Shown: positions 9,666-32,198 of the stretch, one piece after another | Position numbering within the stretch: the stretch's first letter is position 1 | How the letters are laid out: every line of letters begins with the position of its first letter | Made by a program: the position numbers and the translations under genes | NCBI GenBank assembly: GCA_016745055.1 | Contig: JADGDF010000020.1 | Span: 1 to 39,833 of the forward strand | Length of the DNA stretch: 39,833 nt | Source of the DNA: Thiotrichaceae bacterium | GTDB taxonomy: Bacteria > Pseudomonadota > Gammaproteobacteria > Beggiatoales > Beggiatoaceae | Reading direction: 5' to 3' | The notes under the pieces: generated by a model | What the model was told of the DNA's origin: nothing | Seen by the model: the letters and a program-made list of their open reading frames with translations, nothing else | The model's database searches: none

Positions 9666-9840
9666 CTATCCCTTGTTTTTAACAGGATAACGCCGCCAAC
9701 TGAATAAATTATTAAATAATAGTGCAATAACTAAAATGACAAATATGTTAAGCAGAACAGGTATAAACACATAAATATAACCCAAATCAAGAATATCTTG
9801 TCCACCAATCACGGCAGTTAAAGCTGTTGCTCCTCCAGTA
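9666..9840 (-). pseudogene. C-terminal remnant of a second HPP-family gene
   Basis: The minus strand reads GGATALTAVIGGQDILDLGYIYVFIPVLLNIF... SWRRYPVKNKG, ending at TAG (9666-9668). This matches the last ~57 residues of the intact HPP protein at 16272-16787 with a few conservative changes. At DNA level 9685-9838 aligns to 16285-16438 with roughly nine mismatches and no gaps. The HPP motif and everything before it are missing; upstream the frame joins a torD fragment. Confidence 0.85.
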
Positions 9841-9985
9841 ACTGCGCTAAAATTTGGTAATAAGCTAATGAGGTTGTGTCGCTCAGTTTGTTACAAAAAG
9901 CAGTGATCCATTCGCCCAAATGCTCTCCTTGAAATGTTGCAAGCGCTTGATAGGTAGTTTTAGCTGATGTTTCACAGCGGTTATT
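9841..9985 (-). pseudogene. Internal remnant of a second torD-like gene
   Basis: The minus strand encodes TTYQALATFQGEHLGEWITAF and TTSLAYYQILAQL, clearly homologous to HQALASFQGDHLGEWITAF and TTSLAYYQLLSQL in the chaperone gene at 16802-17497. The N-terminal half and the last ~40 residues are gone. The deletion end joins the HPP remnant near 9840, so this is one eroded torD-HPP locus in the same gene order as the intact pair. Confidence 0.8.
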
Positions 9986-10050: not shown

Positions 10051-10088
10051 GACAAATCAGACATAGGCTATTATCTGTCTGATTTGTC
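10051..10088. repeat. Perfect 13-bp inverted repeat before the LRR gene
   Basis: GACAAATCAGACA (10051-10063) and its exact complement TGTCTGATTTGTC (10076-10088) are separated by 12 bases. It lies about 35 bp upstream of the LRR gene start, where it could be an operator, a terminator for upstream transcription or the end of a mobile repeat. No U-run follows on the plus strand. Confidence 0.7.
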
Positions 10089-10122
10089 ATTATCACTAGC
10101 TTTTGTTTCAAAGGAGGTGTTT

Positions 10123-11079
10123 GTGAAACAACCATTTTTAAGCATAAATTGTACCCATTTTTTACAACAATGTAGGAGAAGTGTTTTTCTAATTGTATTT
10201 TCTATTTGGCTCATGATAGGGCAACTCGCTTTTACTGGCACTGTACACGCCGTCGACGCATATGGTAAACCGCATACCACGCAACTTGTACTTTCTGACA
10301 CAACCCTTCATATGGCCGATGAATACGATAGTTCGTATACCTTTGACCCTGCCATAAACACATTCTGTAATACTGTTACTCAGATTCCCCAAATAGAATG
10401 CCAAGCCTTGGTTGATTTTTATCATAGTACCAATGGTCAAAATTGGGAAAGAAGTGCGGGTTGGAACATAACTGATGAACCTTGCAGTTGGCGTGGAGTG
10501 TCTTGTAGTGGAAATGTTGTGATAGACCTCGTATTGGAACAAAATAGGCTTAATGGCTCTATTCCAGAATCATTGGGAAATTTGACGAATTTGCGGAAGT
10601 TGATATTGAATCATAACCAGCTCAGTGGCTCTCTCCCTAAGTCATTAGGCTATTTGAGCAATTTACGGCTCCTTCATTTGATGAGTAACCAAATCTGTGG
10701 AGAAATTTCCACTTCCTTGATGAATCCAAGTAGACTAGGCTATTTACAATTGCAGAACAACCACCTATCTGCTTCTGATCCAGAATTTATTGAATGGCTT
10801 AATGTCAAAAATCCCGAGTGGGCAACGACGCAAACACCTTGTCCTTGTTTTGTCTATGCAGTCCATGATGATAAACTAAACAACTCACAGTTGTTTACCA
10901 TTGATCCTACTCAAAATTTTCAAGTCAACGCTTTGGGTGACATCCATCAAGTCTATGATCTAGAAGGATTAGATTTTCATCCTCAAACACTGATTCTCTA
11001 TGCCTCATCAGGTGATAATCCTGCACAAGGCTTACCTGCTGGCTACCTATACCAAGTCAATTACGACTTAGCCAAGTAA
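10123..11079 (+). CDS. Secreted leucine-rich-repeat protein, probably truncated
   Basis: GTG 10123 is chosen because a perfect AAGGAGGT (10111-10118) sits just upstream. The protein has 318 residues. A signal peptide (hydrophobic about 21-40, cleavage after VHA43) is followed by an LRR N-cap (W..DEPCSWRGVSC) and plant-type repeats (LNGSIPESLGNLTNLRKL, LSGSLPKSLGYLSNLRLL) to about residue 235. The start of a second domain (VYAVHDDKLNNSQLFTIDP... GLDFHPQTLILYASSG) is interrupted after YLYQVNYDLAK by TAA 11077. The missing part of that domain is found at 15530-15966, so a ~4.4-kb insertion split the gene. The N-terminal half may still be secreted. Confidence 0.75.
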   Translation: MKQPFLSINCTHFLQQCRRSVFLIVFSIWLMIGQLAFTGTVHAVDAYGKPHTTQLVLSDTTLHMADEYDSSYTFDPAINTFCNTVTQIPQIECQALVDFYHSTNGQNWERSAGWNITDEPCSWRGVSCSGNVVIDLVLEQNRLNGSIPESLGNLTNLRKLILNHNQLSGSLPKSLGYLSNLRLLHLMSNQICGEISTSLMNPSRLGYLQLQNNHLSASDPEFIEWLNVKNPEWATTQTPCPCFVYAVHDDKLNNSQLFTIDPTQNFQVNALGDIHQVYDLEGLDFHPQTLILYASSGDNPAQGLPAGYLYQVNYDLAK

Positions 11080-11096
11080 TGTGAACGTCTTTTGGT

Positions 11097-11315
11097 TTGC
11101 TCACCATAAAGCTATCCCGTTTATCACAAATTAATGAAGTTAACAAAAAAGCGATTCATATGTTATTTCAAAAGATGGGCGTGGTTGATACTGTGCGATT
11201 CTTAAATCAATTTAGTTTGGGAAGTGGAGATTACACAAAAGATAGGCATCAATGGTTAGATTATTTGTATTTGGATGATATTTTTTCTGAAATAGAAGCA
11301 CGTAGACAACGATAA
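11097..11315 (+). CDS. Small conserved protein (DTVRFLNQF...GDYTKDR type)
   Basis: A 72-aa ORF containing VVDTVRFLNQFSLGSGDYTKDRHQW and ending DIFSEIEARRQR. I have seen this pattern in small cyanobacterial and Beggiatoa proteins, often beside toxin-like genes, but no function is assigned. No ATG starts the homologous region: TTG 11097 is the first possible start, and ATG 11160 would remove the first 21 residues. It begins 17 bp after the LRR stop, so its 5' end may have been altered when this segment was inserted. Confidence 0.5.
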   Translation: MLTIKLSRLSQINEVNKKAIHMLFQKMGVVDTVRFLNQFSLGSGDYTKDRHQWLDYLYLDDIFSEIEARRQR

Positions 11316-11378
11316 AAGGTCTATGAGTCTACGGTTGGGTCTAGGTGGCAAAGCTTGCCCTGGTACTTATTACCATTT

Positions 11379-11888
11379 TTAAAAATTGTCATTGAAATCA
11401 GGTAGTCTATCAAACCAATCAGGCGGATAAATGCCTAGTGTGATATAGCAATGGTAAGAGGAGTATGGCCAATCACGGGGATGTTTGACGGGATTGTAAT
11501 GAATATAGTCAACATGGTTGGCATAGTCGGTTTCGTCGCGGATGGTGTGTTCCCAAAAGCGACGTTGCCAAATCCCCCGCTCATCCCGTTTGATGCGGGT
11601 GTGTGAACGCCATTCTGCGGCTGGAATGTCTTTCGTGAAGTGTTTTTTTATGGCTCGCCAGCGACCGGAATAGTCGTCATCATTCGGTGGTAGGGTTAAC
11701 ACACAGTGGAGGTGTTCAGGTAAGATGACGATGGCATCGAAATGGAAAGGGCGTTGTTGTTTGGTTTTACGGAAGGCTTCGCGGAGGATGTCGATATGTT
11801 GGGTCAACAGGTGTTTGCGGCGTTCCAACAAGTTGACGGTGAAAAAGTAACAACCGCCCGGAACACGGTTGCGGCGGTAGTTTGGCAT
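11379..11888 (-). CDS. REP-associated tyrosine transposase (RAYT)
   Basis: A 169-aa Y1-type HUH nuclease. The N-terminal [17 protein letters not shown] strand is followed by the metal-binding HLH (59-61) in [12 protein letters not shown] and the [30 protein letters not shown] block with the candidate nucleophilic tyrosine. RAYTs cut and rejoin single-stranded REP hairpins. ATG 11888 matches the family start; the open frame reaches 11927, but that stretch contains a degenerate REP. Three REP hairpins with related loops lie within 230 bp upstream. It is part of the DNA that splits the LRR gene. Confidence 0.9.
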
Positions 11889-11906
11889 GGAAAATCCTTC
11901 ATGTAA

Positions 11907-11932
11907 GGTGCATAAATCCGGTGTCATGCTCC
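11907..11932 (+). repeat. REP hairpin, degenerate copy
   Basis: GGTGCAT, then AAATCCGGTGTC, then ATGCTCC. It has the same stem-loop-stem layout as the copy at 11963 with one stem mismatch. It lies just upstream of the RAYT start. Confidence 0.55.
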
Positions 11933-11962
11933 ATTATAATCAGGAAATAAGTATTGAGGTAG

Positions 11963-11988
11963 GGTGCATAAGCGCAGCGTCATGCACC
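11963..11988 (+). repeat. REP hairpin (GGTGCAT stem)
   Basis: A perfect 7-bp stem GGTGCAT / ATGCACC encloses the 12-base AAGCGCAGCGTC. It lies about 75 bp upstream of the RAYT start and is the likely cognate substrate. Confidence 0.8.
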
Positions 11989-12092
11989 TTATATGAGAGA
12001 CTAGCTAAATGGTGGATGATGCTTATGGAATCAGCCTAGGGACTTGTGAGGAAAACTGTCCACAGTTGAGTAGTGTGCAAGGGTTTCCAAAT

Positions 12093-12118
12093 GGCGGATG
12101 ACGCTACGCTTATCCGCC
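12093..12118 (-). repeat. REP hairpin (GGCGGAT stem), inverted
   Basis: On the minus strand GGCGGAT, AAGCGTAGCGTC, ATCCGCC. The stem differs from the copy at 11963 but the 12-base loop is identical except for one base. The two copies are in opposite orientation, as in BIME-type REP pairs. Confidence 0.8.
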
Positions 12119-12210
12119 TTACGAGTTGCCTAGACGGACAGTTCCGGTCACAACGGTCTGTGGGGGACTTTCACCCCTTGGGCGTATGCCATGTCTGGCA
12201 CACAACGTTC

Positions 12211-12235
12211 GGGTCAAGGTTACAAACCTTGACCC
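12211..12235. repeat. Palindrome GGGTCAAGGTT-ACA-AACCTTGACCC
   Basis: Perfect 11-bp arms around ACA. It shares the GGTTACAAACC core with the element at 1316-1339 but has different, still self-complementary outer arms. The stretch 12119-12279 around it has no credible gene; a 71-codon ORF (12073-12288) crosses the REP and this palindrome and is not convincing. Confidence 0.75.
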
Positions 12236-12279
12236 GCGAGACTTACTCTCAAGCGCCAGCGTGGGAGCGATTGAAAGTC

Positions 12280-13683
12280 CTAGAATGAGTTAGAGTCGTA
12301 TACAACAGTAATGACGCGGAATGTATCGTCACTACGATGCCCGATATCATTTGTACCTTGCAACACTGTTTTGTTGTTTTTTCCGACATTGCCAGCATCA
12401 ACTGTACTCTGCTTTTTACCGATGTTATCGTATAGGTCTTTAGGAGTGTCCACTCTAGAATCTCCAATAGCGATGGCTTGCTCGTTGTCAGTGCCATAGT
12501 GCACTTCATATTTAGCAGAGATGCTTGGTTCTGAAGAAGAATGCTTTGAATCTTTCATGCTAAACAAATAGCCTACGCCCTCCATGAGCTTGTGATTGTT
12601 CAACACGCCGAACATCCCGTAGTGAATAACAGCCGTTGATGTTCCGCTACTGAAGTTCAGCAATTCCACTTCTGTGATTTCCATGCCGGGAATCGGGGGC
12701 GGCGTAAAGGCACCAGGTAAACTACAATTGGAAACTTTGGTTGGGTTTAACATTGGCGGCAGTTGCCCAGGTCCGTGAGCGACATTATCCGTGTATGGTC
12801 CAAAAAACTGATATGAAATGCCACTCATATTAAATGCGATATGATTGACGTAAAATACTTTGTCTATTAGGTGCCATAGCCAAATAATTATTGCGATGAT
12901 TACGATTGTAATTAAGCCAACTACACCAGCCGCAATGAAGTCACCAATTATTGCACAGGTCAGACCTTCGTCCAATGCCGCTTCAAAAGCCGAAGTGTCC
13001 AGTTCCATAGTCACATCCGACTCTGATTCAGCTTCGGATAGTGCATCTTGTTGTTCTTCTTCTGTAAGATTAGGCGGCTTTCCCTCGCGTATTTTTGTTA
13101 CAACTTTAGTAGCTACCGCTGCGATTGATTTTTTTAATGCCTTTGATACAAGAGTAGCTACCGTGGCACTACCAATGCCTATAGCCAACCCGTACATTAT
13201 CATGCACGTTACCGAGCAATAATCGCCCTTTGGGTTGAAGACAAACTGCTGAGCAAAAGCTGTTTTGTTACTTTTATCCTTGAGAGCTTCCTGAGGTATG
13301 AACCTGTTATATTCTTCAGGGACGTTGCCGTGATAGGCGACGACCATGTTGTAAACACCATTGACCTCGCAGTATGACATATCATACTTTCGGCCATGCG
13401 AGTCGGTTTTATTAGTGTAATCGGCCCAGTTTTCGTCTTTGGAGAGTGTTTCAAAATGATTTTCGATGTCAGCTTTACCGGGGGTAGGTGTCCCGTATGT
13501 CCCTTTAGTAATGTGATCGAAAATCTTTTGGACATAGGCAGTGTCGTTGGTTTCAACAAAGCTCTTGAGCAAACTGAAAAGTTCACTTTCCTTCCCTTTA
13601 TGCGCAGAGCTCAGTCGTGATATTCCTGTGTCGACAGGGAAGTATTTCACCTTCTTCAAGCTGTTTGATGCAATGGTTGTCAT
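12280..13683 (-). CDS. 467-aa membrane-inserting protein of unknown family
   Basis: Start ATG 13683 has GGAGGAAT about 8 bases upstream; an open extension to 13755 is ignored. Residues 1-155 are soluble and polar. Residues 158-180 (CMIMYGLAIGIGSATVATLV) and 243-273 (CAIIGDFIAAGVVGLITIVIIAIIIW) are hydrophobic, separated by a basic helix and an acidic stretch (EEEQQDALSEAESES). Residues 278-467 look beta-rich (VNHIAFNMSGISYQFFGPYT; TSTAVIHYGMFGVL; KYEVHYGTDNEQAIAIGD). I recognise no family. The central membrane segments plus a beta-rich C-terminal domain recall pore-forming or membrane-attacking proteins, a guess only. It lies 208 bp downstream of the reverse transcriptase on the same strand, so the two may form one unit. 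Confidence 0.7.
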   Translation of the reverse strand: MTTIASNSLKKVKYFPVDTGISRLSSAHKGKESELFSLLKSFVETNDTAYVQKIFDHITKGTYGTPTPGKADIENHFETLSKDENWADYTNKTDSHGRKYDMSYCEVNGVYNMVVAYHGNVPEEYNRFIPQEALKDKSNKTAFAQQFVFNPKGDYCSVTCMIMYGLAIGIGSATVATLVSKALKKSIAAVATKVVTKIREGKPPNLTEEEQQDALSEAESESDVTMELDTSAFEAALDEGLTCAIIGDFIAAGVVGLITIVIIAIIIWLWHLIDKVFYVNHIAFNMSGISYQFFGPYTDNVAHGPGQLPPMLNPTKVSNCSLPGAFTPPPIPGMEITEVELLNFSSGTSTAVIHYGMFGVLNNHKLMEGVGYLFSMKDSKHSSSEPSISAKYEVHYGTDNEQAIAIGDSRVDTPKDLYDNIGKKQSTVDAGNVGKNNKTVLQGTNDIGHRSDDTFRVITVVYDSNSF

Positions 13684-13891
13684 TATGGAATTCCTCCGTT
13701 TAGTAAAGAGAGCAATCGATAGAAAATATATCAGGATTCTGCTTACTGGTGCCAAAGTTTAGGTTAATTTTCAAATGGATAAAGGTGATGCTACCCTATT
13801 AGCGCAGATGGAAGGATATCGAGTTATCCAGTATCAACCAGCTTCATAAATTGAGAAGCCAAGTAGCAAATCCCACCATCCCCTGAAACCT

Positions 13892-14860
13892 TCACTTCCC
13901 CAACCCCACTCCTCGCACCACATACTGCCCAATGTCCCGTTCAGAAACACCTTGCTCATAAAGCTGGCACAGTTTGCCTTGATGGTTAGCCCAAGTCTTC
14001 CAAGCGATATCCAACCCCGCCCGCAAGCGGTTGCCGATTCGATACCCCAGAAAATCAAACCCAGACTCCTTAATGCGTCCGATAAAAGTTTTGTAAGGGT
14101 GTTTAGTCATCTTCACGCGGTCTAACACCCGATTCATAATCCGTACTCCCGTCCGTAATTGCTGGCGTGTCCGGCACAGAATCACCCAATCATCCATGAA
14201 CCGCGCATAAAACAACCCCTGCGCCGCACAATACTGACCAAGTTCCTCATCCAATGCCTGCAAATACACCGCCCCCAACAACGGCGACAGCGGATTACCT
14301 TTACTGATGCCAATCTCAACCGGGTGCAAAACACCCTGCACATCATCCAACCGATCCAACATCCGGCTTAATAACGTCAGCACCGTTTCACTAGGAATCA
14401 ATGCCTGTAACTGCTTGATTAAAATGCCGTGGTCAATCGTTGCATAATATGAATTGACATCACTGCGACACACAAAACGGTACTCATCCACCTGCTCATG
14501 CACCGCATTCACACAATCCTTAGCCCCGCCATTGCCTGCTAAATGGAAACAATGTTGACTCAGCTGAGGGTTGAGATAAGGGCTTAACACCTGCGCCATG
14601 GCCTTCAAGACCAAAGCATCTTGCGCACACCAGACTAACCCGCCTTCATACTGTTGACAGGGACTAAACTGATAAGTCCCATCGCAAATGGCTGCAATGA
14701 TCTCCGGCTCCAACTGTTGGCGATGATGCCGTAAGTGCCAATAATCACTATTGTGATGACTGCGCTTACGCCGACTCGCCAACCATGCCCAAGCCGCTTG
14801 GAGATTTTCCGCTGCCACAATCTGCTCAATTAAACCCATAATGTTAAGCCGAGTAGCCAT
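13892..14860 (-). CDS. Stand-alone reverse transcriptase
   Basis: A 322-aa RT domain protein. Motif A is CRSDVNSYYATIDH (Asp134), the motif B region is GISKGNPLSPLLGAVYL (184-200), and the catalytic motif is FMDD (221-224). A thumb-like HPYKTFIGRI..GFDFLGY follows (254-273). There is no maturase (X), DNA-binding or endonuclease domain, and the length is that of a bare RT. The motif B box differs from the IGNLTSQ box of diversity-generating retroelements. It resembles stand-alone RTs with CPLSPLMGALYL that I recall from many proteobacterial genomes without a known role. ATG 14860 is the first ATG; ATG 14839 is possible. No group II intron or retron RNA was recognised nearby. Confidence 0.88.
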   Translation of the reverse strand: MATRLNIMGLIEQIVAAENLQAAWAWLASRRKRSHHNSDYWHLRHHRQQLEPEIIAAICDGTYQFSPCQQYEGGLVWCAQDALVLKAMAQVLSPYLNPQLSQHCFHLAGNGGAKDCVNAVHEQVDEYRFVCRSDVNSYYATIDHGILIKQLQALIPSETVLTLLSRMLDRLDDVQGVLHPVEIGISKGNPLSPLLGAVYLQALDEELGQYCAAQGLFYARFMDDWVILCRTRQQLRTGVRIMNRVLDRVKMTKHPYKTFIGRIKESGFDFLGYRIGNRLRAGLDIAWKTWANHQGKLCQLYEQGVSERDIGQYVVRGVGLGK

Positions 14861-15020
14861 GAACAATAGCGCATCCTGTATCGCACTTCACCTAATAAAA
14901 ATAGTAACGTGCTTCAAGAAGCTGAATATAATTCACGAAAAATATGGTAATTGAAATTTTACAGCATGTAAATACAACTTAAGTCGTATTGACAAAAATG
15001 ATTAAATAGTATAAGGAAAT

Positions 15021-15047
15021 TTACCCGCTGGCTATCTATATCAAGTT
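15021..15047 (+). pseudogene. 27-bp second copy of the LRR-gene breakpoint
   Basis: Encodes LPAGYLYQV, as at 11038-11064 in the LRR gene, with about four silent transitions. Sequence similarity stops on both sides. It marks the right edge of the inserted segment or a remnant of a paralogous gene. Confidence 0.5.
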
Positions 15048-15102
15048 AGTAACTCACGTTACGAAATAATTGGAACGTTGTTTTCTCATTCTTGTAAACA
15101 TT

Positions 15103-15179
15103 GTCATTCCCACGAAAGTGGGAATCTAGAATCTAACTAACATGACAACCTCCTAGATTCCTGCCTGCGCCGGAATGAC
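15103..15179. repeat. dRS3-like dispersed hairpin repeat
   Basis: GTCATTCCCACGAAAGTGG, AATCTAG at the left and CTAGATTCCTGCC, CGCCGGAATGAC at the right form a long inverted repeat. The ATTCCC-N8-GGGAAT core is the pattern called dRS3 in Neisseria and is widespread in proteobacteria. Confidence 0.65.
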
Positions 15180-15381
15180 TGCGTAACGTCAGTCAATAAA
15201 ACCAATGGTAGTCTCACACCTGTTTGTCACACTGGCTCCGGTGTCTCGCAGAGTTTTCGTGACGCTCATGGGACGTCCTATCCCTAAGAGCTACTCACGT
15301 CAACGATATGCTAGTTGATTGCCTCGATCCGTCCGGTCTCGATACGGCAACTGCGTACTTTGTTTCACTACGCACTCCGCC

Positions 15382-15529
15382 AGCCTACTCCACCATAACG
15401 CTGAGGTCGTTGTCAAAAATAGCAAAAAACGCACACTATCGCCCTTACGTACTGTTTTATACCATTTTTGAGCACACAGCTAGTCGCGGACTACTCGGCT
15501 CCGGCTTCGCCTTTCCATGCCTCGCAGCG
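15382..15529 (+). repeat. Left arm of ~140-bp inverted repeat
   Basis: Starts AGCCTACTCCACCAT, passes TTGTCAAAAATAGCAAAAA and TACTGTTTTATACCATTTTT, and ends CCATGCCTCGCAGCG. The reverse complement of 15980-16114 matches along its length with small indels. It abuts the gene fragment at 15530. Confidence 0.85.
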
Positions 15530-15966
15530 TAGGAAAAGTGTCCGCCATGGCTTTCCATCCACAAGAGGGCAGTTTATGGGTCTGGGCTGATGGTGAAGGT
15601 TTATTTACCGTTGATATTAACCAAATTGATCAGGAAACTTGTCACAAAACTGAAATCATCTCTGCCGATACCAAAGTTGAAGGCTTAACTTGGGATATTC
15701 AAGGACATACCCTGTATGCGGCCTTGGGCAAAGCTTTATATCAATTTGACTATCAAACGGGAGTTGTTGATAAAACTTGCAGGCACTTCCCTAGCCAAGT
15801 TGAAGCGTTATCAATGCTTGATACGAACGAGTTATTATTCAGTTTACATAAATCCAGCGATACCAGTATTCATTCATTTGATCCTAGCAGTTGCACTATC
15901 ACTAACAGCCTGTTAGTCAATACTCCCTATACTGATATTGAAGGTATCGTTTGGCAATGTACTTAA
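15530..15966 (+). pseudogene. C-terminal half of the split LRR protein gene
   Basis: Encodes VGKVSAMAFHPQEGSLWVWA, GLFTVDINQID, VEGLTWDIQGHTLYAALG, VEALSMLDTNELLF and TPYTDIEGIVWQCT, stopping at TAA 15964-15966. These WD/beta-propeller-like blades continue the domain started before 11079 (GLDFHPQTLILYASSG...). An ATG at 15517 gives an open frame, but that codon lies inside the left inverted repeat, so it is not a native start. It has no ribosome-binding site of note. Joining to the N-terminal half would restore a secreted protein of roughly 460-480 residues. Confidence 0.75.
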
Positions 15967-15979
15967 GTTTTTTTACTTG

Positions 15980-16114
15980 CGCTGCGAGGCATGGATGCCG
16001 AGTAGTCGCGACTGGCGCTCAAAAATAGTATAAAACAGTATGCAAGGGCGATAGTCCTTGACGTGCGTTTTTGCTATTTTTGACAACGACTCCAACGTCA
16101 TGGTGGAGTAGGCT
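15980..16114 (-). repeat. Right arm of ~140-bp inverted repeat
   Basis: Starts CGCTGCGAGGCATGG and ends GGTGGAGTAGGCT. It is an inverted copy of 15382-15529, lacking about 13 bases near the inner end. It begins 13 bp after the stop of the enclosed gene fragment. Confidence 0.85.
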
Positions 16115-16271
16115 AACGGAGATTTATAGATTAAATCATATAATACATAATTATTTATTATAATTACAAATAAAATTCCAGATAGTTCCAATATGGTTTT
16201 CGATTTTTAAAGACAGAGCTTTTCTGACCAAGCAAGAAGCCCGTTGGCGCAGTGCAGAAAAACTAAACCTG

Positions 16272-16787
16272 TCAAGTTTTCACCGGATAACGCCGCCAAC
16301 TGAATAAATTATTAAATAATAGTGCAATAACTAAAATGACAAATATGTTAAGCAGAACAGGTATAAATACGTAAATATAACCTAATTCCAAAATTTCTTG
16401 CCCACCAACCACGGCAGTTAAAGCTGTTGCTCCTCCAGGAGGATGCACACAGTCACAGTATTGCATCAGAATAATGGCAACAGACACTGCTAAAGCAGCT
16501 GCAATTAGGGGATCAGCAACTCCCTGTGCGCAAGTGACTCCAACAATAGCAGCAATGCTGTGCCCACCAATTAAAGCTCGAGGCTGTGATAATTTGCCTT
16601 GAGGTACAGCAAATAGTAATACAGCAGACGCGCCCATTGATGCAACGATCATAGGTAAACTTTGAAGAGCAAACAAGTCACGGCTGGTAAAAATAATGGC
16701 AGCAATCGCAATAAAGCTACCTATCAACGAAACCAGTTTATCAATATGGCACTGATATTTGTTTTGCTTGATGGGGAAAGTCATCAT
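16272..16787 (-). CDS. HPP-family integral membrane protein
   Basis: A 171-aa protein with about five hydrophobic segments and the family signature CVHPPGGATAL (residues ~114-124). HPP proteins of cyanobacteria and chloroplasts have been linked to nitrite transport. As the last gene of a nitrite/nitrate-type molybdoenzyme operon, a role in moving nitrite or nitrate is plausible but inferred. The start is ATG 16787 or 16784; it follows the chaperone stop by 14 bp without a strong ribosome site, suggesting coupling. Its 3' 154 bp are duplicated at 9685-9838. Confidence 0.85.
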   Translation of the reverse strand: MMTFPIKQNKYQCHIDKLVSLIGSFIAIAAIIFTSRDLFALQSLPMIVASMGASAVLLFAVPQGKLSQPRALIGGHSIAAIVGVTCAQGVADPLIAAALAVSVAIILMQYCDCVHPPGGATALTAVVGGQEILELGYIYVFIPVLLNIFVILVIALLFNNLFSWRRYPVKT

Positions 16788-16801
16788 TTCACTAGTAACT
16801 T

Positions 16802-17497
16802 TTAAGCTGGAACCACATCACATTCATAAGGAGTGCCTTGTTCATCACTGATTGGCTCTGCTGTTGATTCTGGTAAAGGTAATTGATTTGCTGTGACAAT
16901 GCCATCCCAGGTTTTTTCTAATAACTGTGATAAAAGTTGATAGTAAGCCAATGAGGTTGTGTTAGTTAATTTGTCACAAAAAGCGGTGATCCATTCGCCT
17001 AAATGATCTCCTTGAAATGAGGCAAGGGCTTGATGTGTCGTTTTAGATGACGTTTCATCATCTGCTCGGGATAACATAACCAGGAGTAAGGCTGCAAATT
17101 CCAGCTCACAAATTAAATGATCCGCTTTTTCGGTTGCATTTTCTGCTAATTGAAAACCAAAAGCACGATAGAATCCAGCAATATCGGCTAAGATTGCGCC
17201 TTTGTCGCGTCGAATAAATCCAGATTCATTAATTGGGCAGGCAACACCACCTTCAAACAAGTAGGTATGTTCTTCTGTCAACTCCTCTAAATTACTATTT
17301 TCTGCGTATTGTCTCAATTGTTGATACAAACTCTCCAAATTAGACGCATTTGATATTCCTGTATTGTCAGCTAATGCTTGAATATCTGTGACTTCTTGTT
17401 GTAATAAAGTAAACGTTTTATCAGAAGGGGGCGCTAGTAATTGTGCAAGCAGTAAAAGTAAGTCAGCCTGGGCGAGTTGGTTAATTTTTTGAGACAT
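16802..17497 (-). CDS. TorD/NarJ-type molybdoenzyme chaperone
   Basis: A 231-aa all-helical protein. The family signature region LTEEHTYLFEGGVACPINES lies in the first half, followed by GFYRAFGFQL and DHLICELEFAALLL typical of TorD/DmsD/NarJ-like chaperones. Such proteins bind the Tat signal of the apo-catalytic subunit and help cofactor loading. ATG 17497 is preferred over 17509 because GGAA lies 6 bases upstream. Encoded after the gamma subunit and just before the HPP gene, it corresponds to the delta subunit of ebd/pcr-type operons. It is cytoplasmic and not part of the final enzyme. Confidence 0.85.
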   Translation of the reverse strand: MSQKINQLAQADLLLLLAQLLAPPSDKTFTLLQQEVTDIQALADNTGISNASNLESLYQQLRQYAENSNLEELTEEHTYLFEGGVACPINESGFIRRDKGAILADIAGFYRAFGFQLAENATEKADHLICELEFAALLLVMLSRADDETSSKTTHQALASFQGDHLGEWITAFCDKLTNTTSLAYYQLLSQLLEKTWDGIVTANQLPLPESTAEPISDEQGTPYECDVVPA

Positions 17498-29888: not shown

Positions 29889-32198
29889 ATGAGTAAATAT
29901 TTAGTTGTTGTAGAATCCCCCGCCAAAGCAAAAACCATTGAAAAATACTTAGGTAAAGACTTTAAAGTCCTGGCTTCTTATGGGCATGTAAGAGATTTAC
30001 TCCCCAAAAATGGTGCCGTTGATCCTGATAATCATTTTGCCATGAATTATCAGCTTATTGAAAAAAATCTTAAGCATACTGATGCCATTAGCAAGGCCAT
30101 GCAAGCTTCACAAGCCTTATACCTTGCTACTGACCCTGATCGCGAAGGCGAAGCGATTTCATGGCATATTAGTGAAATTCTAAAAGAAAGAAAAACTTTA
30201 GAAAATAAAGCAGTACATCGTATTGTTTTTCATGAAGTTACTAAAACAGCAATTCAAGAAGCCATTGAACATCCACGTCCTTTATCCACTGATTTAATCA
30301 ATGCGCAGCAAGCACGACGCGCACTTGACTACTTAGTAGGCTTTAATTTATCCCCTTTGTTGTGGAAAAAAATTCGTACGGGTTTATCAGCAGGCCGTGT
30401 CCAAAGCCCTGCTTTGCGGCTTGTTGTTGAAAGAGAAATTGAAATTGAAAAATTCAAGCCGCGTGAATATTGGACAGTGGGGGCAGATTGCCTTAAGGGA
30501 AAACAGAAATTTCAAGCCAAATTGACCCATTTTGATGGCAAAAAACTGACCCAATTTAGTATCGGCAATGAAGAACAAGCCACGCATATCAAAACAACCT
30601 TATGGGATGCTGCCGCAGGTAAGTTGCAAGTTATCAAGGTTCAAAAAAAGCAATTAAAACGTCAGCCTTCTGCCCCCTTTATTACCTCAACGTTACAACA
30701 AGAGGCCGCTCGTAAATTAGGTTTTACCACTCAACGTACCATGCAGGTTGCACAAAAGCTGTACGAAGGCATTGATACCGGTGAAGGCGCAATGGGATTG
30801 ATTACCTATATGCGGACAGACTCAGTGAATTTAGCCGACGAAGCGCTTGAAGACATTCGTCAAACCATTGTTGATCGTTATGGCAAAGGTATGTTGCCAA
30901 CCAAAGTGCGCACCTTTAAAACTAAGGCTAAAAATGCCCAAGAAGCACATGAAGCCATTCGTCCTACCTCTGCACAACGTCATCCAGACACATTAACAAC
31001 TCATTTAACCCAAGAACAGCTCAAACTGTACACTTTGATTTGGCAACGCACGGTGGCTTGTCAAATGATTCATGCAACCTTGGATACGGTAGCCGTTGAT
31101 TTGATCTGTGCTGATGAAAAAAATTTATTTCGGGCCAATGGTTCTGTCTTAATTAGTCCTGGTTTTATGACAGTTTATCAGGAAGGTCAAGATGATTTGC
31201 CTGAAGACGATAACAGCCAGAATAAAATTTTACCAGCAATGGAAAAAGGCGATGTGGTTGATCTTAAAGAGATTAAACCAGTGCAACATTTTACCGAGCC
31301 ACCTCCTCGCTATTCGGAAGCGCGTTTGGTTAAAACGCTAGAAGAATTTGGTATCGGTCGACCTTCAACCTATGCTAGTATTATTTCTACCTTACAGCAG
31401 CGTGGATATGCGGTACTGGAGAAAAAGCGCTTTACACCAACGGATGTAGGCAGAATTGTCAATAAATTTTTGACGGAACATTTTACTCAGTATGTCGATT
31501 ATGATTTTACGGCAAAGCTTGAAGACGAGCTAGACGCAATTTCTCGTGGTGAAGAACAATGGGTACCTTTGATGGAACGCTTCTGGCAATCATTCAAAGA
31601 CCTGGTTGATGAAAAAACGGAAACAGTTCAACGTAAAGATGTGACTCAGGAAGCCATTGATGAAAAATGTCCAAAATGTGAAGCGCAACTTGTCATTCGT
31701 TTAGGTAAACGTGGAAGATTTGTTGGATGTACTAATTATCCTGATTGCGACTACACTCGCAATGTGGATGGGGATACTTCTGCACCACCGCCACCAAATG
31801 AGCCAGAGGTTGTTGAAGGCAGAACCTGTCCTGCTTGTGATTCACCTTTGCATATTAAACAATCTCGCAATGGCAGTAAATTTATTGGTTGCAGTAATTA
31901 TCCCAAGTGTAAACACACAGAGTCTATGCCGGAAGATAATACGGGTGTGACTTGTCCACAATGTGACTCAGGGGTTTTGGTGCGTAAAAAATCACGGTTT
32001 GGTACGTTTTTCTATGCATGTAATAATTATCCAACCTGTAAATACGCAGTATCTCATTTGCCAATTAAAGAGCCTTGTCCACAATGTGGTTGGCCAATTT
32101 TAACGCTAAAAACAACCAAACGTTGGGGCACTCAGAAGGTTTGTCCGCAAAAAGAATGCGATTTTATTGAGTCTGTAGAAACAGAAAAAACTGAATAG
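29889..32198 (+). CDS. topA: DNA topoisomerase I
   Basis: A 769-aa type IA topoisomerase that relaxes negative supercoils. The Toprim domain starts KYLVVVESPAKAKTIEKYLG with DPDREGEAISWH as the acidic metal site. The active tyrosine is Tyr307 in GLITYMRTDS. The C-terminal part has four zinc-finger-like repeats (CPKC..CTNYPDC, CPAC..CSNYPKC, CPQC..CNNYPTC, CPQC..CPQKEC), the last with a changed C-terminal pair. The length is shorter than E. coli TopA (865 aa). Together with smg this is a conserved pair. Confidence 0.97.
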   Translation: MSKYLVVVESPAKAKTIEKYLGKDFKVLASYGHVRDLLPKNGAVDPDNHFAMNYQLIEKNLKHTDAISKAMQASQALYLATDPDREGEAISWHISEILKERKTLENKAVHRIVFHEVTKTAIQEAIEHPRPLSTDLINAQQARRALDYLVGFNLSPLLWKKIRTGLSAGRVQSPALRLVVEREIEIEKFKPREYWTVGADCLKGKQKFQAKLTHFDGKKLTQFSIGNEEQATHIKTTLWDAAAGKLQVIKVQKKQLKRQPSAPFITSTLQQEAARKLGFTTQRTMQVAQKLYEGIDTGEGAMGLITYMRTDSVNLADEALEDIRQTIVDRYGKGMLPTKVRTFKTKAKNAQEAHEAIRPTSAQRHPDTLTTHLTQEQLKLYTLIWQRTVACQMIHATLDTVAVDLICADEKNLFRANGSVLISPGFMTVYQEGQDDLPEDDNSQNKILPAMEKGDVVDLKEIKPVQHFTEPPPRYSEARLVKTLEEFGIGRPSTYASIISTLQQRGYAVLEKKRFTPTDVGRIVNKFLTEHFTQYVDYDFTAKLEDELDAISRGEEQWVPLMERFWQSFKDLVDEKTETVQRKDVTQEAIDEKCPKCEAQLVIRLGKRGRFVGCTNYPDCDYTRNVDGDTSAPPPPNEPEVVEGRTCPACDSPLHIKQSRNGSKFIGCSNYPKCKHTESMPEDNTGVTCPQCDSGVLVRKKSRFGTFFYACNNYPTCKYAVSHLPIKEPCPQCGWPILTLKTTKRWGTQKVCPQKECDFIESVETEKTE

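Follow-up and report, generated by a model that had tools for sequence, protein, structure and literature searches.

We identified a new kind of mobile element in a 39,833-nt stretch of the Thiotrichaceae bacterium genome (NCBI GenBank assembly GCA_016745055.1, contig JADGDF010000020.1, positions 1 to 39,833; hereafter the window), where two copies of it face each other as inverted repeats. The element has no open reading frame (ORF), has a conserved secondary structure on one strand, was inserted without target duplication wherever this was checked and follows a target rule of one base, a C at position -4 from its first nucleotide. We call it new because it departs from each miniature-element class tested in at least one defining feature and because its target rule matches that of a host topoisomerase. 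Tentatively, and with slightly less than even confidence, we propose that it moves by single-strand cut-and-join and that the enzyme is most likely host topoisomerase I (TopA).

The window has two copies of one dispersed element, inserted separately at 15238-15529 and 15980-16121. The first-pass annotation had described inverted repeats at 15382-15529 and 15980-16114 around a gene fragment. Self-comparison of the window confirmed these repeats as three inverted pairs, 15375-15428/16068-16121 (54 nt, 89%), 15435-15473/16017-16055 (39 nt, 92%) and 15514-15537/15972-15995 (24 nt, 88%), with the copies about 82% identical overall. The position and inversion of the repeats were therefore right and their extents were not: the left copy reaches 15238 instead of 15382, and the right copy breaks off at about 16121. 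The inner ends, CCATGCCTCGCAGCG and CGCTGCGAGGCATGG at 15515-15529 and 15980-15994, had been said to abut a C-terminal coding fragment almost exactly; the coding piece starts at the left element edge (15530), and on the right its stop codon ends at 15966, 13 nt short of the copy. Read on the element strand, the left copy runs from its head, CGCTGCGAGGCATGG at 15529, to its tail, CACCGG at 15238. Each window copy is closer to other genomic copies (85-86%) than to its partner (about 82%), and we therefore regard the two as independent insertions. The earlier suggestion of two non-autonomous elements in opposite orientation is thus borne out by copies that are dispersed and separately inserted; as also noted then, the enclosed segment encodes no transposase, nor does it encode a recombinase.

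The bacterium's own genome (G000; 4.65 Mb in 356 contigs) holds 41 matches to the 171-nt left arm, both window copies counted, so the idea that the element might be absent elsewhere falls. The 15-nt inner end has 47 sites there at up to 2 mismatches and its reversed control 0, and with these counts the repeat is not due to chance. Aligned copies start sharply at CGCTGCGAGGCATGG and end sharply at CACCGG, which gives an element of about 285-293 nt, and a common enzyme gene was found neither inside nor next to any copy. There are no terminal inverted repeats; the ends CGCTGCGAGGCATGG and CTCTGCGNGACACCGG resemble each other as direct rather than inverted sequences. Folding energies are -124.9 kcal/mol (z -5.4) for the head-to-tail strand of one own-genome copy and -91.4 (z -2.3) for the opposite strand of a copy identical to it. 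An alignment of 19 copies taken from five genomes has a consensus energy of -105.6, compared with -56.9 (sd 5.7) in column shuffles and -89.6 on the reverse strand. The consensus fold pairs 90.3% of cells, with both partners changed in 30 pairs and none of 500 shuffles matching it, figures favoured by the derivation of the structure from the same 19-copy alignment that was used to score it; shifting the structure by 1 to 3 columns lowers pairing to 37-44%. Two G-U pairs are invariant in 19 of 19 aligned copies, and the letters of the terminal 3' helix differ by lineage (GTCTCGC with GCGAGAC, GTTTCGC with GCGAAAC, ATATCAG with CTGATAT, TGTCGCC with GGCGACA). The left window copy has two mismatches within this helix.

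A lone perfect hairpin, CCGGTGTCACG/CGTGACACCGG, identical to that of the element tail, stands outside any full copy (L061:4218-4250). In four copies (L020, L058, L059, L063), the element is interrupted at one and the same TTA/TA by an insertion sequence (IS) that we take to be IS5-like, as if this IS targeted the repeat, and another IS, with GAGGGCAGCCTC ends, interrupts two element copies in L168. Sites with only a tail were considered as parent elements and rejected: L058, L059 and L063, like the head-side piece L020, are cut by the first of these IS, and the others are decayed. An ORF between two tandem copies (L140), presumably KilA-N-like, was likewise set aside as an element gene, being a single occurrence.

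The mode of insertion can be read from an empty site. The frame at 15532-15966 corresponds to the terminal part of a large paralogous family in the same bacteria, with matches in 16 of 40 relatives. Its closest paralogue, L094 (G000:C317), is uninterrupted (protein P0001 is 84% identical to G000:C317) and aligns in order with window positions 10549-11061, 15021-15046, 15191-15237 and 15527-15973; the piece at 15530-15966 is therefore the in-situ end of the leucine-rich repeat (LRR) gene. By this comparison, the gene that starts at 10084 is broken by three insertions, one of about 4 kb with a REP-associated tyrosine transposase (RAYT) gene, an ORF and a reverse transcriptase (RT) gene, one of about 145 bp with a palindrome, and the 292-bp element, and its 3' end is in place in the original orientation. 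With the caret marking a junction or cut, the paralogue reads ACTGGCT^TAGGA and the window ACTGGCT[element]TAGGA, so the left copy was inserted without duplication or loss, and the target-site duplication that the first-pass annotation proposed to look for is absent there. Another copy, L006, lies within a RAYT gene; once the element is removed, the protein reads ...AWVLLPDHLHCLWTLPEGD..., and its alignment to the solved TnpAREP structure 4er8 passes over the junction with no gap. Deleting the element also restores long frames at L165, with 300 aa or more to either side, and at L152, L154, L134 and L008, and in a head-to-head pair on C34 the flanks read as if one copy had entered another one base inside its head.

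The target of the element is defined by one base. Among 99 copies for which 30 nt of 5' flank are available (36 from the own genome, 36 from HSG11, 17 from CSMAG545, 3 each from HSG1 and BB2, 2 from Methylocaldum, and 1 each from CSMAG551 and a viral contig), C stands at -4 in 90 (binomial P 4e-61 against 16% C). Other positions are near background, the strongest being -3 in the own genome with 21 A and 7 C of 36. The rule extends to distant relatives, where C occupies -4 at 15 of 16 usable loci; this count joins 15 of the 16 loci read there to Methylocalor L256 and excludes L268, in which the contig has a single base ahead of the head. Five own-genome copies that are identical throughout are preceded by CATA (L003), CTTC (L005), CATC (L006), CACT (L009) and CCAC (L010). 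Their common base is the C, and the element therefore does not specify the other three, which argues against guide-based targeting as known from IS200/IS605 guides, bridge RNA and intron pairing. The predicted 3' end of the element reads CNNN in most lineages. In 24 copies of the HSG11/HSG1/CSMAG545 type it is C (22), A (20), T (24) and T or C (24) before the sequence becomes random, that is, CATY^ or CCTT^ and hence CNNN^, while own-genome copies end CCGG^ and three BB2 copies CCTC^.

This rule coincides with the published cleavage preference of topoisomerase I, a type IA enzyme. According to excerpts of PMC7587558 and PMC11999072, topoisomerase I cuts preferentially where C stands at -4, acts on a single-strand substrate and leaves a 5'-phosphotyrosine and a 3'-OH; its site is made up of Arg169, Arg173 and Tyr177, and is different in topoisomerase III. 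Of the 20 genomes searched, 18 gave exactly one type IA gene (PF01131). The gene of the present bacterium happens to lie in the window, which we take as coincidence; compared with Escherichia coli TopA (residues numbered by counting along chain 1ecl), its product retains the counterpart of Arg169 and carries Phe in place of Tyr177. In the mechanism we propose, the element would move as a single strand, as single-stranded DNA (ssDNA) or perhaps RNA. An enzyme that forms a 5'-phosphotyrosine and needs only C at -4 would cut the target strand as CNNN^, the same enzyme would cut the 3' end of the element as CNNN^, and the strands would be rejoined crosswise; the folded ends may keep the strand exposed and position the cuts. 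Host TopA would be the enzyme that best fits a one-base rule, and the element would need no transposase gene. It is possible, if rather doubtful, that the element spread in the Gammaproteobacteria with TopA as its transposase, in the boldest form as a folded RNA pasted into DNA without reverse transcription.

Several observations weigh against the TopA proposal. Nine of the 99 copies lack C at -4, the C rule does not hold where truncated copies break off, and a comparison of strand bias with GC skew, a weak test, gave no signal. Methylocaldum-type copies share CAATCG before diverging, so that C is apparently not at -4 of their 3' end; an end just behind the G would be consistent with the frame restored in L121. 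The own TopA has Tyr at the residue equivalent to Arg173, and no type IA gene was found in 2 of the 8 carriers (G041 and G042, for which completeness is not given). We found no published case of topoisomerase-driven transposition, and Y1 proteins are encoded in all 8 carriers, so a trans-acting transposase is possible. We infer the link to TopA from one base and from analogy.

Among the alternatives, a miniature of a HUH Y1 system (IS200/IS605 or RAYT), moved in trans as ssDNA by a tyrosine transposase, seems unlikely to us but deserves to be taken seriously. Like IS200/IS605 miniatures, the element follows a single-strand logic, with folded ends that are strand-specific and in the same orientation, insertion without duplication, and a four-nucleotide site at both the left flank and the right end, a layout described for IS200/IS605 in excerpts of PMC6006769. 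A Y1 search, which covered carriers only, detected these proteins in 8 of 8. However, the IS200/IS605 tetranucleotide is set by a guide (same excerpts), whereas the element lacks a fixed left-flank tetranucleotide, only one of the four bases being constant even among identical copies. No transposase-bearing parent was found: no copy encodes Y1, and 0 of 30 Y1 loci in the 8 carriers own the element's ends. A separate element copy lies near Y1 at two loci (L201/L206, one locus; L199/L212, one locus). REPINs mobilised by RAYT resemble the element in being high-copy, gene-less, folded and gammaproteobacterial, and a RAYT gene lies in the window, but the element is about 285 nt long against 21-65 nt for REPs (excerpts of PMC6006769). 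Furthermore, RAYT cuts C^T at a GTAG-tagged hairpin, in one case also C^A, with C at -1 and not -4 (as stated in parts of PMC8266576), whereas the element cut would be CNNN^ with C as the first element base. An RNA-mediated origin, through copying by an RT such as the adjoining UG4 or through an intron-like reverse-splicing ribozyme, is improbable. The conserved strand is RNA-like in its two invariant G-U pairs, and UG4-like RT matches were obtained for 5 of 8 carriers and for 2 of 12 other genomes. Nonetheless, the RT is missing from 3 of 8 carriers, including G020 with 17 element matches, the window RT belongs to a different insertion than the element, the copies match no group I or II intron or other relevant Rfam family, and 100% identical copies at unrelated sites speak against pairing-guided, bridge-RNA or other guide targeting. 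We also considered a UG4-like RT as the parent, as 74 nt of the element 3' end lie upstream of HSG1 RT genes (L244, L250), but in opposite orientation and at loci that are mutual duplicates; it was rejected because RT presence tracks the element poorly and because the 3'-end piece is antiparallel to the RT.

HEARO elements make no target duplication. The HEARO/IscB omega-RNA elements (RF02033) are likewise short, structured, dispersed and mostly gene-less, and the relative G002 has many HEARO copies, most of them lacking IscB, so that this guild is present in the family. Even so, we consider it very improbable that the element is an ORF-less omega RNA, of HEARO/IscB or TnpB, left by an RNA-guided transposon. 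RF02033 has 0 matches in the own genome at E 1 and 0 in 12 + 8 + 10 loci, RRXRR is absent from the own genome, covariance model R1 of the element misses all 8 HEARO loci given to it, and TnpB occurs in only 4 of 8 carriers. The element has its single C at -4 on the 5' side, whereas this position is not consistently C in the HEARO 5' flanks of G002 and G003. In G002 (L099-L112), which is a closed genome from this family, there are 20 HEARO matches at E 1, of which 17 exceed the cut-off, but only 2 IscB-type (RRXRR) genes. Facing inverted repeats about 450 bp apart had also suggested a trapped gene piece or an invertible switch. Both are barely credible, given that the piece and the remainder of its gene are co-linear with L094, that the parental orientation is kept, that no recombinase lies inside and that the left and right copies were inserted independently. 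Miniature inverted-repeat transposable elements (MITEs) of Thiomargarita share with the element the lack of genes, the interruption of genes and the bacterial family, and carry inverted repeats and direct repeats at their ends (10 bp; TATAG) according to excerpts of PMC4853749; unlike classical DDE-type MITEs, the element has neither terminal inverted repeats nor target-site duplication. With type IA topoisomerase sites the element target shares C at -4 and, in our proposal, would share the single-strand substrate and the 5'-phosphotyrosine and 3'-OH chemistry (excerpts of PMC7587558), although these enzymes are known for cleavage and religation, not for transposition.

The element is apparently an undescribed, conserved structured RNA or ssDNA family of several gammaproteobacterial lineages. 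A pattern scan of GTDB genomes yielded 60 stretches in Ca. Halobeggiatoa, Thioploca, other Thiotrichales and Methylocaldum, with one hit taken as chance, and one viral contig carries a copy. The Parendozoicomonas-type pattern hits L155 and L181 were dismissed as chance, since the rest of the element is missing and L155 has no R1 match. Model R1 found matches in 16 of 369 Gammaproteobacteria at E 1e-3, the own genome included, and relatives thus span Thiotrichales, methanotrophs and 15 further Gammaproteobacteria genomes; heads were read in 12 of these 15 (16 loci), where several R1 matches are shorter than 130 nt. Among plasmids, phages and E. coli, one query matched 2 methanotroph plasmid records and the other queries none. 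Rfam gave no relevant match to the copies tested, and neither the head sequence nor a description of the element was found in the papers searched. Beside 21 distant or methanotroph loci, no gene is shared except frames that overlap the element itself.

The coordinates of the element copies, their targets and the surrounding features are collected in Table 1. Additional features accompany the interrupted gene. The direct repeat that bounds the 4-kb insertion (11032-11061 / 15018-15047) has diverged between its two sides, and a 491-aa ORF within the insertion (12280-13755, minus strand) has no Pfam, NCBIfam or PADLOC match. Relatives of the UG4 RT in HSG11 and HSG1 (L244, L249, L250, L245) have long, variable C-terminal extensions that end in a hydrophobic stretch and a basic tail. 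Upstream of the LRR gene, pieces of a TM_HPP gene (93%) and of a nitrate reductase delta-like gene (82%) are duplicated and joined (9677-9974 / 16277-17057).

Table 1. Positions of the element copies, the interrupted LRR gene and topA in the window.
Feature	Position	Strand	Evidence
Full-length element, 292 bp	15238..15529	-	Copy alignment; model R1 253 bits, E 2e-70 (R1 includes this copy itself, which bears on the score); paralogue empty site
Second copy, opposite orientation, tail missing after ~142 nt	15980..16121	+	Inverted pairs, copy alignment; model R1 69 bits
Four target nt 5' of left copy, CCTA on element strand, C at -4	15530..15533	-	Sequence, empty site
Four target nt 5' of right copy, CTTG, C at -4	15976..15979	+	Sequence, copy alignment
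topA, sole type IA topoisomerase gene found in own genome; candidate enzyme (putative link)	29889..32198	+	
5' part of interrupted LRR gene	10084..11061	+	Pfam LRR; co-linear with paralogue L094
~4-kb insertion in LRR gene, ~26-30-bp direct repeat of gene at its bounds	11062..15020	.	Paralogue gap
RAYT gene within 4-kb insertion	11379..11927	-	NCBIfam NF047646, E 6.7e-55
RT, PADLOC group UG4, within 4-kb insertion	13892..14866	-	PDLC03779 RT_UG4, E 2.7e-98; RVT_1
LRR gene piece	15021..15046	+	96% to paralogue
~145-bp insertion with GTCATTCC-type imperfect palindrome	15047..15190	.	Inverted pair 15103-15129/15153-15179; gap versus paralogue
LRR gene piece	15191..15237	+	89% to paralogue
LRR gene 3' end with stop codon (the C-terminal fragment)	15530..15966	+	84% to paralogue over 15527-15973

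In summary, our analysis describes a conserved structured RNA or ssDNA family in several gammaproteobacterial lineages, with a one-base target rule that can be tested at the bench, and this holds even without the TopA step. If the TopA proposal is true, the element would spread without an enzyme of its own or a parent transposon, exploiting an enzyme that every cell must keep. Such spread would amount to a new transposition route and would tie topoisomerase I to genome evolution.
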